DNA of 64,000 nucleotides from Armatimonadota bacterium (GTDB lineage: Bacteria > Armatimonadota > Fimbriimonadia > Fimbriimonadales > Fimbriimonadaceae), in the NCBI GenBank assembly GCA_022563855.1, contig JADFMN010000004.1, forward strand, positions 1 through 64,000, in the 5' to 3' direction. The notes under the pieces were generated by a model, which saw nothing but the letters and a program-made list of their open reading frames with translations, did no database searches and was not told the origin of the DNA. A program made the position numbers and the translations under genes. Position 1 is the first letter of the stretch. The number at the start of each line of letters is the position of its first letter. Positions 6,655-25,849 of this stretch are shown one piece after another.

Positions 6655-7124
6655 GCAGCGAAGTCGGACGATTCCTTGCCCTGACTCAGAATCCGTTCTC
6701 GGACATCTGCCGGGAGGATGTGGTTCGGTTCTAGGAGAACGACCAAGCGCTCATCATCTTTGCCCACTCCAGACAAGAAGTCATCGTTGCGATCCTTGAG
6801 CATCTCGGCAGCTTCGTCGATGTCGTCGCTGTCGAACATCACGATTCCGGCTACAGCGTCGACCTTGATGGCACACTTTCCCGTCTCCGTCCGTATGACG
6901 ATGTAGTTGGATCCCTCACCGTCCCACTCGGGGAAGGAGAACCGGACTCGCAGATCAATCGCCGGAATGGTCTCGCCCCTGAGGTCGAAGACTCCGAGAA
7001 ACATTTCGGGAGACTTAGGGATCGGCGTTGGCTTCTGTTCCGGCAGAATTCGCTCCACGGCATCGATCGGGATACCGTAGCGCTCATTGGCCAACAGAAA
7101 TACGATGAATTTTTGCTCTGACAT
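6651..7124 (-). CDS. cheW: CheW-like chemotaxis coupling protein
   Basis: A 157-residue single CheW domain. The opening KFIVFLLANERYGIPIDAVERIL and the middle GVFDLRGETIPAIDLRVRF are diagnostic. CheW bridges chemoreceptors and the kinase CheA, which fits an organism with a flagellar operon at 33.5-42 kb. No CheA, receptor or CheY lies nearby. The start has a good AGGAG seven bases upstream. Confidence 0.92.
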   Translation of the reverse strand: MSEQKFIVFLLANERYGIPIDAVERILPEQKPTPIPKSPEMFLGVFDLRGETIPAIDLRVRFSFPEWDGEGSNYIVIRTETGKCAIKVDAVAGIVMFDSDDIDEAAEMLKDRNDDFLSGVGKDDERLVVLLEPNHILPADVRERILSQGKESSDFAA

Positions 7125-7229
7125 GACAATACTCCTAGCGCATGGACTACAAATCCCTTATGCCACGCCGATATCTATGGCTACCCGGTAAAATCACCGG
7201 AGCTCCACTACATCAGGCGAAGTTAGACC

Positions 7230-8318
7230 ATGCTAGGAATCTTGCTCGTAGCAATAACAGTCGTACCCGAACGGCAATCCGACGCTGCAGACCGGTTTGA
7301 GCGGTATATGTCCAGGGCGAACAGCTTGACCGTAGACATCGAGGTTCGCGAGAAATCCAGCCCGCTCGTCGGCAGGGGAATTTTGGAGTGGCGACGACCG
7401 AACAGCCAGCGGTTCACAATCGACTGGGGGAGAGAGCGATTCGAGTTCGTCCAGTCGCCCAAGGGAGTGATTTCGATCCGTCATGACTGGATGCAGTACC
7501 ACGAAAACTTCGCGCGGAACACAATTGCGCCGCCGGCCGAAGAGCTCGCCGACAATGCGCAGTTGGCATACCCGGACATACTCCTGGCTACTACTCTTTC
7601 CGGCGATGATAGCTGGAAGCCGAATGGCACTGAAATCATCGCCGGTGTCCTCTGCGATGCATTGCGCTCACCGTTGAGGACGGCGTTCGGCGAAGGCCAC
7701 ACAACCGTTTGGATAGATCCAGCGGGACGCGTTCTCCGTTGGCACCGGCTGATGAACGGGCGAACCCAAGTGATCGACATTACCGTTGACTTGCTGAACT
7801 ACAAGTCAACATCTCGTTCGTCGTCAAACTTCTACAGCGTCGAACCTCCGCTCGGATACTCTCCAGCGTCGATCCCGTTGCCGATGTCACCTACCATCAC
7901 CGTCATGCAGCCGGCACCGCTTGGAAAGTGGTACGACGCGAGGGCAAAGAGAAACGTCGACGTCGCAGCGAAGGCGAAGGATCGTTTTATCGCGATCGTC
8001 TTCACCGATCCCGAGTCGAACATCTGCAAAGCTGCGGAACCTGCGTTCAACTCTCTGAGACAGCTTCTAGCCGAGCACGATTGCGAGCTGATCGAGCTGT
8101 CGCTTGGAGACAAGCAGCCGGACTTGGATAACAAGGACCCAGAGCGACCAGTGTTTTGGGATAGGAACGGTGAAATAGAGCGGTCTTACGGGATCGTCGG
8201 TACGCCGTATATAGTAGTCGTCGATCCGAGCGGCAACATCACCCGAGCTTGGCAAGGGTACCGAAAGGAGCTGAGAGACGAGATGTTCGAGACCCTGCTC
8301 AAGGCCTTCGACGACTAG
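7230..8318 (+). CDS. LolA-like domain fused to a thioredoxin-like domain
   Basis: A 362-residue exported protein with two parts. Residues 1 to about 200 resemble LolA/LolB-type lipid- or lipoprotein-binding beta folds (FERYMSRANSLTVDIEV near the start, and a DPAGRVLRWHRL strand). Residues about 235-362 are a thioredoxin-like fold ending in the cis-proline segment GTPYIVVVDPSG. The redox motif is degenerate: SNIC stands where CxxC is expected, so disulfide chemistry is doubtful. A short hydrophobic N terminus suggests export. It may bind and deliver something at the envelope; function is unknown. Confidence 0.65.
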   Translation: MLGILLVAITVVPERQSDAADRFERYMSRANSLTVDIEVREKSSPLVGRGILEWRRPNSQRFTIDWGRERFEFVQSPKGVISIRHDWMQYHENFARNTIAPPAEELADNAQLAYPDILLATTLSGDDSWKPNGTEIIAGVLCDALRSPLRTAFGEGHTTVWIDPAGRVLRWHRLMNGRTQVIDITVDLLNYKSTSRSSSNFYSVEPPLGYSPASIPLPMSPTITVMQPAPLGKWYDARAKRNVDVAAKAKDRFIAIVFTDPESNICKAAEPAFNSLRQLLAEHDCELIELSLGDKQPDLDNKDPERPVFWDRNGEIERSYGIVGTPYIVVVDPSGNITRAWQGYRKELRDEMFETLLKAFDD

Positions 8319-15848: not shown

Positions 15849-17432
15849 ATGCCTAACACCGTCAACGGCCTTTTGCAACTGCTTGAAGTGCTGCCGCCCG
15901 CTATTCGCGCGAAGCTCGTCGACAGCCCGGAGATCGAGAGTTTGATCGAGGTCGTGCTCGACTACGGTCGTGCAGCCGAAGCCAGGTTCAAGGGGCACGT
16001 CGAGCGATGGCCAGGATTGATCACTTCGGACGAGGACATCAAGTTCGTCACGGCGTCTTTGGGTGAGTTCGGCGCCGACAATCGAGCCGGGATCGAACGA
16101 ACTCTACACCGCATCTCCGCTATTCGGAACCGGCACGGCCGCATCATCGGCCTAACCCTTCGCGTTGGGCGCGCGCTGGAGGGCACGATCGATATCATCG
16201 ACGACATCGTGCGCAGCGGACAGTCGATCCTGCTGCTGGGGAAGCCGGGCATCGGCAAGACGACGAAGCTCCGCGAGATCGCTCGCGTGCTGGCCGACGA
16301 AGTCAACCGGCGGGTCGTCATCGTCGATACTTCCAACGAGATCGGCGGCGACGGCGATATCCCGCACCCGGCGATCGGAACGTCGCGCAGGATGCAAGTG
16401 CCGATCCCGTCCGAGCAGCACAACGTGATGATCGAGGCGGTCGAGAACCACATGCCCGAAGTCATCGTCATCGACGAGATCGGCAACGAGGCCGAGGCAG
16501 TAGCCGCACGAACCATCGCCGAGCGCGGAGTGCAGCTGATCGCAACCGCACACGGTCAAACTCTTGAGAACTTGATGCTGAACCCGTCGCTGTGCGACCT
16601 CATCGGCGGCATCCAGGCGGTGACGCTGAGCGACGACGAGGCGCGGCGGCGCGGAACGCAAAAGACCGTGCTCGAACGCAAAGCGCCACCGACGTTCGAC
16701 ATAGTCATTGAGCTCTTGGACTTCGAGAAGCTGGCCGTTCACCACCACGTTCAGAAGGTCGTAGACCTGATGCTTCGAGGCGTCCCACCCCGACCCGAAG
16801 TCAGAGTCCGCACGGACGAAGGACGCGTCGAGGTTCTGCAGCGCGAGGCGATTCCGGAACAGGACGCGACGCAAGACGATCCACCGGTTGAGCGACCGCA
16901 CACGCTTGAAGAAGCCCCGATATACGACGAGCCGACTCGCCCCCCGCGAAGGCGACAGAACAGCAAGAGCCGGCTCCGCATCTATCCGTACGGCATCGCC
17001 AGAACGCGTTTGGAGCGCGCGATCCGAGAGACTCAGGCCGACGCTCACATCACGAGCGACATCAATCAGGCTGACGCGGTGATAGCGATGCGCTCCACCT
17101 TTGAGAGCACGCCGAGGAAGCTGCGGGACCTTCGGCGGCCGATACCGACCGTCGTCATCAAGTCGAACACCTTCAGCCAAATATCGGGAGCCCTAAACCA
17201 ACTGGTTAGCGAGAGTTTAAGCGGAAGGAACAACAAAGACAGGGCAGTGCAAGAGGTCAAGAAAGCGATCACCACGGTCCGGCGCTCCGGAAAGCCGGTC
17301 GAACTCTCGCCACAGACGGCAAATCTGAGAAAGGTGCAGCACGAGATCGTCGAAGGCAGCGATCTAGCCGCAGAATCGTTCGGCCAGGACCCGGATCGCA
17401 AGCTCAGGGTTATGCCAAAACGGAACAAGTAG
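15849..17432 (+). CDS. SpoIIIAA-like AAA ATPase with C-terminal R3H domain
   Basis: A 527-residue P-loop ATPase of the SpoIIIAA/Ycf45 group. Walker [10 protein letters not shown] is at residues 131-139 and Walker [14 protein letters not shown] near 200-212. The sensor-type segment is [15 protein letters not shown] Pro/Arg-rich linker (about 330-375) leads to a second conserved block ([18 protein letters not shown]) and a C-terminal R3H motif, Arg494-x3-His498, known to bind single-stranded nucleic acid. The same architecture is found in cyanobacteria and other non-sporulating phyla. Function is unknown, probably RNA- or ssDNA-related. A TAAAAT -10-like element lies near 15800. Confidence 0.85.
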
Positions 17433-17465
17433 ACATTTATATACTATCCGTGCCATGATGGAGTC

Positions 17466-17528
17466 ATGAACATTCGATTGGACGCGATTGGGATCGTTGT
17501 CTCTAGCATCGATCGCTCCGCTCGATGA
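17466..17528 (+). pseudogene. N-terminal remnant of a VOC/glyoxalase-family gene
   Basis: A 20-codon frame reads MNIRLDAIGIVVSSIDRSAR and then TGA. This is the typical opening strand of VOC (glyoxalase/bleomycin-resistance) proteins, in which the next residues are usually FY plus a helix. Nothing homologous continues in any frame before the flotillin gene. I read it as the stub left after deletion of the rest of the gene. The surrounding gap 17433-17587 has no other gene. Confidence 0.5.
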
Positions 17529-20924: not shown

Positions 20925-21010
20925 CCTGCTCCCGTCCGTTCCTATCCGCGTTTGATGAGCGGGGTTGCAGGGTACCCCTAGCTGACTGTGGCCGCTTATG
21001 GAAAATCGTG

Positions 21011-21048
21011 GATATCTATAGTGTATAGTAGATATCTTTCTACTATAC
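21011..21048 (+). promoter_or_regulatory. Overlapping palindromes, candidate SOS operator of imuB-dnaE2
   Basis: A perfect inverted repeat has 10-bp arms GTATAGTAGA (21023-21032) and TCTACTATAC (21039-21048) with a six-base spacer. A second palindrome with arms GATATCTA (21011-21018) and TAGATATC (21029-21036) overlaps it. The site ends 12 bases before the imuB start. imuB-dnaE2 cassettes are usually LexA-controlled, so this is a candidate repressor site, though it does not match the B. subtilis or E. coli LexA boxes. Confidence 0.6.
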
Positions 21049-21060
21049 TAGAAGACTGGA

Positions 21061-22248
21061 ATGCGTTATTTTTTGTATTTGAGCTTGGATCAGTTCTATG
21101 TCAGGCAGCACGAGGCTGGGCTGGCGACGGTCGTCCACCGCGAGGGCGCCGTTCTGGACTGCTGCGAACTCGCGCGTGCTCGAGGGGTTCGACCCGGTAC
21201 GCCGACGAGCGAGGCCAAGGCGATCTTGCGCGAAGACGCCCGCAATATCGAGTACCGGCTGGAGCAGTACACGCAGGCCCGCGACCGCTGGCTCGACATC
21301 TGCACGCTGTACAGCAGCTCGATCGAGCACGAATCCCCCGCCACCGCGTGGGTCGACCTCAGCGCGCACCCAGAGCCTGTGGACATCTCCGGGCGGCTCA
21401 TCAGCGAGGTATGGATGCACACCAGCTGCCCGATCTCGGCCGGGATGGCCTCCTCGAAGTGGGTCTCTGTGCTCGCCGCGCGCCCGTGCGACCCCAGCGC
21501 CATGAGCCTCGGAATCGCAGATATTGAACCTGTCGAGTCCCCTGAGTCGTTCCTCGCCCCTCTCCCCACCATGCGGTTGGCGCCAATCCCCATTCAGCAC
21601 CGAGAGCGGCTTGTGCTGCTGGGGTATCGAAGGGTCGGCGACGTCCGCCGCGCGCCGCTGAGAGCGCTGACAGAGCAGTTCGGCCAAGACGGGCTGCTCA
21701 TACACGAGGCCGTCTGCGGGCGCCTGCGCGACCACCTCCAGCCCAACTACCCCGGCGACTCGCTCGCCCGGCGCCAGCGGTTCGAGGGCGGGGTCAGCAA
21801 CCAGATCGCACTAGAAGACGGCGTGTGCCAAATCGCCAGCCGACTTGCCGAGGACCTACAGGCCAGAGACCAGCATGCGGTTGAAATCCACCTGATTTTC
21901 GAGCTTGAGAGTGGGAAAACCGCCGATATCCGCCGCAAGCTGCCGAAGCCGATCCAGGACGAGCGCGCCCTGCGCTCGTGCCTGCAGTACCTGCTTGGGC
22001 AGATCAAGCTCGACGAACCCGTGATCGCGGTACGGGCAAACGCGCCCCACCTGCGCAAGACGCCCGCCATACAGCGCAATTTGGAGCCGCGTTTGAACCC
22101 GCGCGAGCGAACCAAGGCGATCACCCTGGCCCAGAGGAAAATCCACAGCGTATTCGGCGCGGAGTCGATCCTGAGAGCCAGCGATGTGAAACCGCCCCGC
22201 AGAAAACGTCTTTTGAGGGCTTGGCAACATGCGACCGGATGGCGCTAA
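21061..22248 (+). CDS. imuB: ImuB-like inactive Y-family DNA polymerase
   Basis: A 395-residue protein of the DinB/UmuC superfamily. The opening LYLSLDQFYV keeps the first palm aspartate (Asp10). The second catalytic motif, normally S-x-DE before A-Y-L-D, reads SPATAWVDLS (residues 92-101), so the Asp-Glu pair is replaced by Ala-Thr. Loss of the catalytic acids is the hallmark of ImuB, which acts as an adaptor joining DnaE2 to the beta clamp during damage-induced mutagenesis. It overlaps dnaE2 by 20 bp. No imuA or lexA lies nearby. Confidence 0.82.
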   Translation: MRYFLYLSLDQFYVRQHEAGLATVVHREGAVLDCCELARARGVRPGTPTSEAKAILREDARNIEYRLEQYTQARDRWLDICTLYSSSIEHESPATAWVDLSAHPEPVDISGRLISEVWMHTSCPISAGMASSKWVSVLAARPCDPSAMSLGIADIEPVESPESFLAPLPTMRLAPIPIQHRERLVLLGYRRVGDVRRAPLRALTEQFGQDGLLIHEAVCGRLRDHLQPNYPGDSLARRQRFEGGVSNQIALEDGVCQIASRLAEDLQARDQHAVEIHLIFELESGKTADIRRKLPKPIQDERALRSCLQYLLGQIKLDEPVIAVRANAPHLRKTPAIQRNLEPRLNPRERTKAITLAQRKIHSVFGAESILRASDVKPPRRKRLLRAWQHATGWR

Positions 22249-25200
22249 GCTCGTAGCGAAGTGGCGCGAGACAGGCGCCTGGTGGGCCGGGGAAACGCCG
22301 GTCGAGGTCGCCGAGTGGAGGGATCGATCGGGCGTGAAGCGGCGAGCCGAGCGGAACCTGCCACCGCTGATCCAGTCGAACGACCAGCGCGAGCACCACG
22401 AGAACAGTACCGAGGACATCTCGCTGCGCCCGTTCAAGACCCGCGACGAGAAGGTCAGCAAAGCGTGCGGGCACGTCCCGCCGGACTACACCCCCGCCAG
22501 ATGCCCCGCGCAGGGCGCCTACGCCCCATTGCACGTGCTCAGCGGGTACTCGTTCGGCCACAGCGTTCTGCTCGCCCGAGAGCTGGCCAGACGCGCGGCG
22601 AACCTGGGGATACCCGCCCTGTGCATCACCGACAGGCTCGCGCTCACCGGCGCGATGGAGTTTGCGCGCGAAGCTAACTCAGTCGGGATCAAACCGCTGA
22701 TCGGCGCGACTCTCGAACTGGATACAGGAGGCGAGATCGTGCTGATCGCCCGCGACAAGCAAGGGTACGAGTCCCTGTCGCTGCTCATCACCGCCTGTCA
22801 CCTGCGCGAGCCGCGCCTGTATCCGCTATGCACCTGGGAGCGGCTGGAGCACCACACCCGCGGGCTGCTCTGCCTGACCGGCGGCGACAACGGCCCGATC
22901 AACCGGCTCCTGCTCCATCGGCAGTACGAAGACGCACGCCTCCTAACCACGCGGTTGGTCGATCTGTACGGCCAGGCGAACGTGTTCGTCGAAATCGACC
23001 GGAGCTACCTGCCGTGGGACATCGCCGCCAACGGAAGGCTGCTCGAACTGGCGGATCAACTGGACCTCACGCCCGTAGCCGGGGGAAGGGTCACCCACGC
23101 CGCGCCAGAGCAGTTCCCGGCTCAGGACGTGCTGCTGTGCTCCGAAACGCTCTGCACGGTCGAGGAGATCATCGGGCGCAAACCTCTGCGCGACGCGTCC
23201 CAGCCACAGGTTCAAGATCGCCCCTCTCGAGCCCTCAACGCAGAGAGGTACCTGCGCTCCGTCAAGGAGATGAGGCAGCTGTACAGCGACCGCCCTGACC
23301 TGCTCGAGAACACCCTCCGTGTCGTCGACCGCTGCGACGACGACGTGCTGCCGGCCCGCACCCGCCTGCCGCAGATATTCGCGCACCCGGAGCAAGCGTT
23401 GAGGGAGATCACTTACGCGGGGGCTCAGGTGAGGCACAAGAGCGTCACGCCGAAGCTTCACCGTCGGCTCGACTTGGAGCTTGAGCGCATCACCCGCCTT
23501 GGGTTTGCCGATCACTTCCTTGCCGCGTGGGATATGTGCAAATGGGCGGAGGAACAGGGCATCCAGCACAGCGGGCGCGGTTCCGTGGTCGACTCAGCGG
23601 TCGCGTACTGCCTCGGCCTCAGCAGGATCGACGCGATGCGGCACAATCTGCACTTTGACAGGTTCCTCCCAGACGACGGCAACAAAAGGCCGGACATCGA
23701 CATCGACTTCGAGGCCAAGAGGCGCGACGACGTGCGCAACTACATGATCACGAAGTACGGCGCTGAGCACGTCGCGACCGTCAGCGCGATCGGCGCCTAC
23801 TGCACGCGCGGCATCGTGCGCGAGGTCGGCAAGGCGCTGGGGCTCTCGCCCAAAGCGATCGGCTTCCTTGCCAAGCGCATCCACGGCGGAGTGCCGCCAA
23901 GAGAGCTTGAGAGCGCGCTCAGCAAAAGGCCGGAGCTGCGCGACAGCGGCATCGACAAGCAGCGGCTGCACTGGATTTTCAAACTCGGCCATATGCTGCT
24001 CGACGTGCCGCGCAACATGCGGGCGCACTCCTCCGGCATCGTCATCTCCGACAGGCCGCTCGCCGAAATAGTGCCCGTGCAGTGGTCCGGCGGCTTGCAG
24101 AACGACGGCGAGAACGAAGAGCACCTACGGATCATCCAGTGGGACAAGCGCAGCGCCAAGCACTGCTTCGACAAGTTCGACATTCTCTGTTTGCGCGGGC
24201 AGGACGTGCTCTCGGGAACACAGGAGCGCGTCCGCGTCCAGACCCCGGATTTCGACGTCAGCCAGATTCCGAGCGACGACGAAGAGACGTACCGCGCGAT
24301 GCGCTCGGGGGAGCTGATCGGCATCCCGCAATCCGCCAGCCCCGCGATGCGGCAGGCGCACATGCGGCTGCAAACTTCCGACCTGCACGACGCCAGCCTG
24401 GTGCAGGCGGGCATCCGCCCCGGCGTCGGCGGCGCGGTCAAGATCAACGAACTGATCGCGCGCCGCAGGGGGACGAAGACGTTCTCGTTCGAACACCCCG
24501 ACTTCGAGAAAATCCTCGGGATCACGTACGGCATCATCGTGTTCCAGGAGCAGGTCGATCAGATCCTGCAGACGTTCGGTGGGTACACCAGCGGGGAAGC
24601 AGAGGACATCCGAGAGGAGATCCACAAGCGCAGACGCGAAGACTTCGGCCAGGTGATCCACGACGAGGTGATCCGGAGAACAGTAGCGCGCGGCTACACG
24701 CAGAAGGTCGCCGAACTAGCGTTCGAATACGTCGCTGGGTTCAAGGGGTACGGGTTTGCGCAAGGTCACGCACTGGCGTTCGCAGAGATTTCGATCCGCT
24801 CGATCTGGTGCCAGCAGAACCACCCGGCGGAGTACTTCGCGTCATTGCTAGACGCGCAGCCAGCCGGCTACTACGGGCCGTGCACTCTGGTCAACGAAGC
24901 GCGCTCGCGCGGCGTCGCGATCCTCCCGCTCGATGTGAACAGGAGCGGCAACAAGTTCCTCGTCGAAGACGTGCAGTCCACCGAAGACCCGAAGCTCGTG
25001 TTCCCCAACGGCGGGATCCGCGTGTCGCTCCGGTCGGTACACGGGTTGTCCACGAACACGATCGAGCGCATCGTGTCTCAGCGCGGAAGTGGTTACTACT
25101 CGCTGTGCGCCTTCGTCAGCCGTGTACAGCCAAACCGCGACGAGCTGGACCAGCTCATCCTGTGCGGCGCATTCGACTCGATCGAGCCAAACCGGCGTGC

Positions 25201-25849
25201 GCTCCTTTGGGGAGCGTCTCCCGCTTTGCTGTGGGCCGCTTCGCCGTCGCCTAGTGGTCGCCTAATTGTTGCTGAATCATCGTCCATTGGTGACTACTTG
25301 GCGACAACTTGGCGACAACTAGGCGACGTTCCCCCTCTCGGCGACGTTCCCCTGCTTCGCCTACCAGAGCCGACGATCAACTCGGACGTCCACGACTTCA
25401 CCGAAGCGGAAAAGGCGATCCGCGAGCGCAAGGTCTTGGGGCTGGACGTCGCGCGCCACCTCATGGCGTACGAGCGCGAAAGGATCGCAAGCAAGGGCGG
25501 CATCACGACGGCGGAGGGCAAGCGGCTCAAGGACGGTGAACAAGCGATGCTCGTCGGCAACCCGATCCGGCTGCGGTTCCCGCCGACCGCTAGCGGCAAG
25601 CGCGTGGTCTTCTTCGACCTCGAAGACGAGACCGGCCTGCTCAACATCACCTGCTTCGACCAGACGTACCGCCGGTACGGCCACGCGTTCGTGTGCTCGC
25701 CGTATGTGACTCTGATCGGGCACGGGCAGTGGCGCGACGGCTGCACCGCGTTCCTCATCGAGCGCGCCTACTCTTACGAGCCGACGATCACCGAACTCGC
25801 GAACCAGGCCGAAGCACCGATCAAGACCCGCGATTTCTTGGTGGGGTAG
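22229..25849 (+). CDS. dnaE2: Error-prone DNA polymerase DnaE2 (ImuC)
   Basis: A 1206-residue C-family polymerase, longer than the usual 1050 or so. Residues 1-45 (WRETGAWWAGETP) resemble the small DUF6504-type segment often found after ImuB. The PHP domain follows from about residue 95 and is degenerate (ITDRLALTGAMEF, His replaced). The catalytic palm has intact RPDIDIDFE (Asp489, 491, 493) and GRGSVVDSAVAYCLG. The C terminus has an OB fold (VVFFDLEDETGLLNIT). Near residues 1000-1045 there is a low-complexity insert built on tandem GGCGAC repeats. Role: translesion synthesis with ImuB. Confidence 0.92.
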   Translation: MRPDGAKLVAKWRETGAWWAGETPVEVAEWRDRSGVKRRAERNLPPLIQSNDQREHHENSTEDISLRPFKTRDEKVSKACGHVPPDYTPARCPAQGAYAPLHVLSGYSFGHSVLLARELARRAANLGIPALCITDRLALTGAMEFAREANSVGIKPLIGATLELDTGGEIVLIARDKQGYESLSLLITACHLREPRLYPLCTWERLEHHTRGLLCLTGGDNGPINRLLLHRQYEDARLLTTRLVDLYGQANVFVEIDRSYLPWDIAANGRLLELADQLDLTPVAGGRVTHAAPEQFPAQDVLLCSETLCTVEEIIGRKPLRDASQPQVQDRPSRALNAERYLRSVKEMRQLYSDRPDLLENTLRVVDRCDDDVLPARTRLPQIFAHPEQALREITYAGAQVRHKSVTPKLHRRLDLELERITRLGFADHFLAAWDMCKWAEEQGIQHSGRGSVVDSAVAYCLGLSRIDAMRHNLHFDRFLPDDGNKRPDIDIDFEAKRRDDVRNYMITKYGAEHVATVSAIGAYCTRGIVREVGKALGLSPKAIGFLAKRIHGGVPPRELESALSKRPELRDSGIDKQRLHWIFKLGHMLLDVPRNMRAHSSGIVISDRPLAEIVPVQWSGGLQNDGENEEHLRIIQWDKRSAKHCFDKFDILCLRGQDVLSGTQERVRVQTPDFDVSQIPSDDEETYRAMRSGELIGIPQSASPAMRQAHMRLQTSDLHDASLVQAGIRPGVGGAVKINELIARRRGTKTFSFEHPDFEKILGITYGIIVFQEQVDQILQTFGGYTSGEAEDIREEIHKRRREDFGQVIHDEVIRRTVARGYTQKVAELAFEYVAGFKGYGFAQGHALAFAEISIRSIWCQQNHPAEYFASLLDAQPAGYYGPCTLVNEARSRGVAILPLDVNRSGNKFLVEDVQSTEDPKLVFPNGGIRVSLRSVHGLSTNTIERIVSQRGSGYYSLCAFVSRVQPNRDELDQLILCGAFDSIEPNRRALLWGASPALLWAASPSPSGRLIVAESSSIGDYLATTWRQLGDVPPLGDVPLLRLPEPTINSDVHDFTEAEKAIRERKVLGLDVARHLMAYERERIASKGGITTAEGKRLKDGEQAMLVGNPIRLRFPPTASGKRVVFFDLEDETGLLNITCFDQTYRRYGHAFVCSPYVTLIGHGQWRDGCTAFLIERAYSYEPTITELANQAEAPIKTRDFLVG

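Follow-up and report, generated by a model that had tools for sequence, protein, structure and literature searches.

The perfect palindrome just upstream of imuB-dnaE2 in the window (the whole stretch of 64,000 nucleotides that was analysed, from a member of the Fimbriimonadaceae) is very probably an operator for the organism's own LexA, an SOS box of an Armatimonadota type with the form TAGTAGAC-N4-GTCTACTA and the variant half-site GTATAC, as judged from sequence comparison. The preliminary description had proposed a candidate SOS box at this position, and this reading is supported by the occurrence of the motif at orthologous imuB genes and at recA and of a half-site at lexA, from which we infer that LexA is the binder and that the genes are induced by damage. 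The features of the region are as follows.

17427-17446, no strand: second strong copy of the motif, AAGTAGACATTTATATACTA (27.5 bits, p 3e-10)
21011-21036, no strand: second palindrome, GATATCTA-N10-TAGATATC, with a low motif score
21023-21048, no strand: full palindrome, GTATAGTAGA-TATCTT-TCTACTATAC, read directly and unique in the genome
21026-21045, no strand: operator O1, TAGTAGAT-ATCT-TTCTACTA, predicted LexA site and core of the full palindrome (26.75 bits, p 5.6e-10)
21044-21049, plus strand: predicted -10 box TATACT of imuB-dnaE2, from gapless alignment to the TATAAT of relatives
21049-21068, no strand: operator O2, TAGAAGACTGGAATGCGTTA, a degenerate copy placed by gapless alignment (7.0 bits)
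21061-22248, plus strand: imuB, Y-family polymerase-like, 395 aa (Pfam IMS, 9e-14)
22229-25849, plus strand: dnaE2, error-prone C-family polymerase, 1206 aa (NCBIfam error-prone DNA polymerase, 1e-174)

Both Pfam and NCBIfam assign the two genes to these types, with the NCBIfam match of dnaE2 falling under the curated cut-off of that family. The imuB gene starts at the ATG at 21061 and dnaE2 starts 20 bases before imuB ends, so that ImuB-like and DnaE2-like genes of the IMS and DnaE families overlap in one operon, as in a mutasome cassette; no imuA was detected directly upstream of imuB.

Direct reading of the sequence bears out the perfect arms around six bases previously described ahead of imuB, namely 10-bp arms separated by TATCTT and ending 12 bases 5' of the imuB ATG. 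The possibility that this is a chance palindrome or the scar of a mobile element draws on the fact that palindromes with 10-bp arms alone are not rare, four separate ones occurring in the 64 kb of the window, but it is very improbable: shuffling this 100-nt promoter 20,000 times produced arms of at least 10 with a gap of at most 8 in only 12 cases, the palindrome is unique in the genome, a matrix trained independently of it gives p 6e-10, and a chance origin is contradicted by conservation. A mobile-element repeat was rejected, since the 3.18-Mb genome holds no second copy of the palindrome at up to three mismatches. For this palindrome it is position and conservation that count, not palindromy alone. 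The overlapping second palindrome of the preliminary description is also present, and its 8-bp arms GATATCTA/TAGATATC belong to a common class (32 places in 64 kb with arms of 8 and a gap of at most 12); it scores low with the motif matrix (6.8 bits at 21006) and may be incidental.

Investigation of related genomes revealed imuB orthologs in 40 of 61, and the motif conserved at their starts, TATAATAGTAGACATATATGCACTA, agrees with the window palindrome in half-sites and register rather than being a different motif. The common core of these imuB operators is TAGTAGAC-N4-GTCTACTA, to which O1 corresponds in the same register with one to two mismatches from the consensus, and some relatives carry a clear palindrome at the imuB start, for example TAGTAGAC-GCCA-GTCTACTA (L027) and TAGTAGAC-AGAG-TTCTACTA (L009). 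A half-site lies within about 120 nt of the imuB start in 26 of 28 related loci by pattern, or 27 of 28 with one (L015) recognised by eye, L012 being the sole exception without a half-site near the start; nine further loci, fetched separately, have it as well. A symmetric matrix was trained on the imuB sites of 27 relatives, these sites having been picked by similarity to a consensus and the window site being excluded. With exact p values per position at 60% GC, only two positions in the 64 kb exceed 13 bits, 21026 (26.75 bits, p 5.6e-10) and 17427 (27.48 bits, p 3.0e-10). The copy at 17427-17446 overlaps the stop codon of a gene for a SpoIIIAA/R3H-type ATPase and lies 5' of a 20-codon open reading frame at 17466, MNIRLDAIGIVVSSIDRSAR, which, judged by eye, resembles the beginning of a VOC-family gene that has been truncated.

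Regarding the promoter, TATACTAGAAGACTGGAATGCGTTATTTT of the window and TATAATAGTAGACATATATGCACTATTTT of relatives can be aligned without gaps; in the relatives, TATAAT stands at the same distance from the ATG as TATACT does here, and the operator covers the imuB start codon, immediately 3' of the -10 box. This alignment indicates that the ancestral spacing of -10 box and start codon has been retained and that the start-codon operator has decayed to O2, which occupies the position of TAGTAGACATATATGCACTA in relatives, start codon included, and is the sixth best score in the 64 kb; the stronger palindrome lies 23 bp upstream. Paired sites are also found in other relatives (L101, L103, L105 and L018). 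The right arm of the palindrome overlaps the predicted -10 box, that is, a dyad-symmetric site with 10-bp arms lies over the promoter of an SOS-type operon. A LexA dimer at 21026-21045 would cover this box and block transcription of imuB-dnaE2, and repression may be assisted by the degenerate site that covers the start codon, 23 bp further downstream. Upon DNA damage, RecA filaments would form and trigger self-cleavage of LexA, whereupon the mutagenic ImuB-DnaE2 polymerase would be produced; repression over the -10 box and start codon and its relief through RecA are proposed from this anatomy together with the known behaviour of the LexA family.

Alternatively, the palindrome could function at the RNA level, as a hairpin in the imuB mRNA leader, through attenuation or masking of the start site, and the strand can indeed form a 10-bp hairpin; there is, in our estimation, hardly any chance that this is its role. 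Its folding is ordinary (z = -1.3, with 19 of 200 shuffles equally good), the hairpin, unlike the half-site and its register, is not conserved in relatives, and the transcript start indicated by the aligned -10 box lies downstream of the palindrome, which would put the hairpin outside the mRNA. The hairpin was therefore rejected.

Copies at recA and lexA were also sought. The organism's own recA promoter has TTGACAAA-TAGTGCATATATGTCTATAC-T (18.8 bits, p 1.8e-7 per position), in which TAGTGCATATATGTCTATAC sits between the -35 and -10 boxes and overlaps the latter; this site shares 20 identical bases with the imuB operator of a relative (L107) read on the other strand, compared with maxima of 13 to 16 in control regions. 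The matrix trained on imuB thus also detects the motif 5' of recA, including in the organism's own genome, and within the family the regions upstream of recA and of lexA score higher than control regions taken from these loci (p 7e-15 by Mann-Whitney for recA, p 9e-14 for lexA). GTAGAC is present in 27 of 28 family lexA promoters and in six of six more (33/34 in total), mostly followed by A, upstream of the -10 box and in many cases adjoining a TTGACA -35 box; in many of them the site is asymmetric, its right half often being degenerate. The organism's own lexA has only a half-site, TTGACAG-GTAGACA, with a weak score for the full site (-0.3 bits).

The motif is also found at lexA promoters in other orders of Armatimonadota, well outside the Fimbriimonadaceae. 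In a comparison of named genomes, which was based on LexA since a scan with ImuB gave no matches and the ImuB sequences had diverged too far for their alignment to serve as a query, GTAGAC/GTCTAC was detected in 33 of 35 Armatimonadota lexA promoters versus 2 of 42 lexA loci from other phyla, while GAACN4GTTC was detected in 26 of the 42 and in none of the 35. One of these promoters (L165) has a perfect GTAGAC-CTAT-GTCTAC. Similar sites were seen in two lexA promoters of Omnitrophota, L166 (GCAGAC-ACCT-GTCTGC) and L168, with the helix SLRGVTVHL shared.

A single lexA gene was found in the genome, and its product is a canonical LexA by the NCBIfam equivalog TIGR00498 (205.6 bits against a cut-off of 110.95), cleavable by sequence, with the cleavage site AAG, the catalytic Ser in GDSM and the Lys in TVKR. 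It is by its named LexA relatives that the genome is assigned to the Fimbriimonadaceae. Its recognition helix SLRGVTVHL, which differs strongly from the aligned SPNAAEEHL of Escherichia coli, is present in 35 of 35 Armatimonadota LexA proteins, partly through selection, the peptide having been among the search patterns.

Genome-wide sites were counted by pattern search. At up to one mismatch, the consensus has 26 sites in the 61 genomes versus 3 for the reversed control, while at three mismatches in the organism's own genome it does no better than that control (8 versus 15, with a similar outcome in a second search), and only sites with at most two mismatches were used. The genes behind sites with at most one mismatch include imuB, nrdJ (B12-type ribonucleotide reductase), a gene for a radical-SAM protein and obg, the reductase and obg being named by eye; further genes are phage-head-protease-like genes and one for a sigma-region-4-like protein of about 140 aa. 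In the organism's own genome, sites with at most two mismatches lie ahead of a gene with a SocA/Panacea domain and of a TcmP gene (L034, L036). In two relatives (L111, L129) the palindrome lies 5' of a gene of phage head-maturation-protease type, which suggests an SOS-linked prophage or gene-transfer element.

The strongest copies of the motif in the family belong to the conserved sigma-region-4-like gene, which was found in 26 of 41 family genomes and carries a site in 24 of these 26, the organism's own copy, TAGTATACATATATACACTA, reaching 28 bits. The gene lies at 6991-7470 on the minus strand of L253 (contig 9 of the organism's genome, G000), where it is divergent from gcvT, and in relatives at L211-L236, and its product shows resemblance both to sigma-70 region 4 and to a family of phage sigma factors. 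This protein could be either a major target of the circuit or a rival regulator, possibly an autoregulated competitor, and the motif might accordingly be the operator of this helix-turn-helix protein, which would repress or activate its own gene and also control imuB, recA and lexA. We consider this unlikely: no such gene was detected in 15 of the 41 genomes, 12 of which have LexA, a recA site scoring at least about 5 bits is retained in 11 of those 12, most genomes in which the gene was not detected keep the imuB site, and the motif extends to lexA promoters of other Armatimonadota orders. A good recA site is lacking in G020 and G029, two genomes without a proper LexA hit; G020, of which the assembly may be incomplete, retains its imuB site, and a moderate recA site is present in G064, which likewise gave no LexA hit and may be incomplete (its close relative G015 has LexA). 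In G029 (L237), a relative of 1.5 Mb, neither LexA nor ImuB was found and recA has no motif, in agreement with what a loss of the SOS circuit would predict. Thus, LexA is preferred over the sigma-like protein because the motif is mostly retained where the gene for the latter was not found, marks lexA beyond the family and is poor at recA in G020 and G029.

Regarding novelty, the open-access papers searched yielded no report of an Armatimonadota LexA, and a search for GTAGAC with LexA gave only unrelated matches there. GTAGAC-N4-GTCTAC matches no LexA motif quoted in PMC8565304 or otherwise known to us and looks new. It may, tentatively, be the ancestral LexA operator of all Armatimonadota, and perhaps of some Omnitrophota too, set by the helix SLRGVTVHL, with a second tier in which an SOS-controlled sigma-region-4-like protein relays the signal of damage to additional genes, some of them phage-like. 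The motif makes the SOS regulon of Armatimonadota open to prediction, connects a single recognition-helix sequence with a single half-site and suggests that a main target is a sigma-like protein not characterised so far. A small testable case of operator turnover is offered by the imuB operator, which sits on the start codon of an almost leaderless message and has shifted upstream in this lineage.

LexA motifs must be found afresh for each phylum, and the site was previously described as resembling neither GAACN4GTTC nor CTGTN8ACAG, which its half-site sequence confirms. The LexA box of E. coli is a 20-bp palindrome at the promoters of recA, lexA and error-prone polymerases, and this box, CTGT-N8-ACAG (TACTGTATATATATACAGTA), has the same overall length and dyad register as the site described here, while the half-site is CTGT there and GTAGAC here and the helices are SPNAAEEHL and SLRGVTVHL, respectively. 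The Gram-positive and actinobacterial GAAC-N4-GTTC, which also controls imuB-dnaE2 in actinobacteria, has the same four-base spacer but another half-site. The Xanthomonas LexA box, TTAG-N6-TACTA, shows an apparent likeness in its TAGTA/TACTA ends but has a shorter spacing and no GAC-N4-GTC core. In Bacteroidetes, LexA-like boxes CTAA-N5-TTAG and GGA-N5-TCC are bound by a non-canonical repressor (PMC8565304); the same paper counts 17 distinct reported LexA motifs in all. The Bacteroidetes network is likewise one whose SOS operator has changed between phyla, with different sequences and a non-canonical repressor, whereas the Armatimonadota motif is associated with a canonical LexA.
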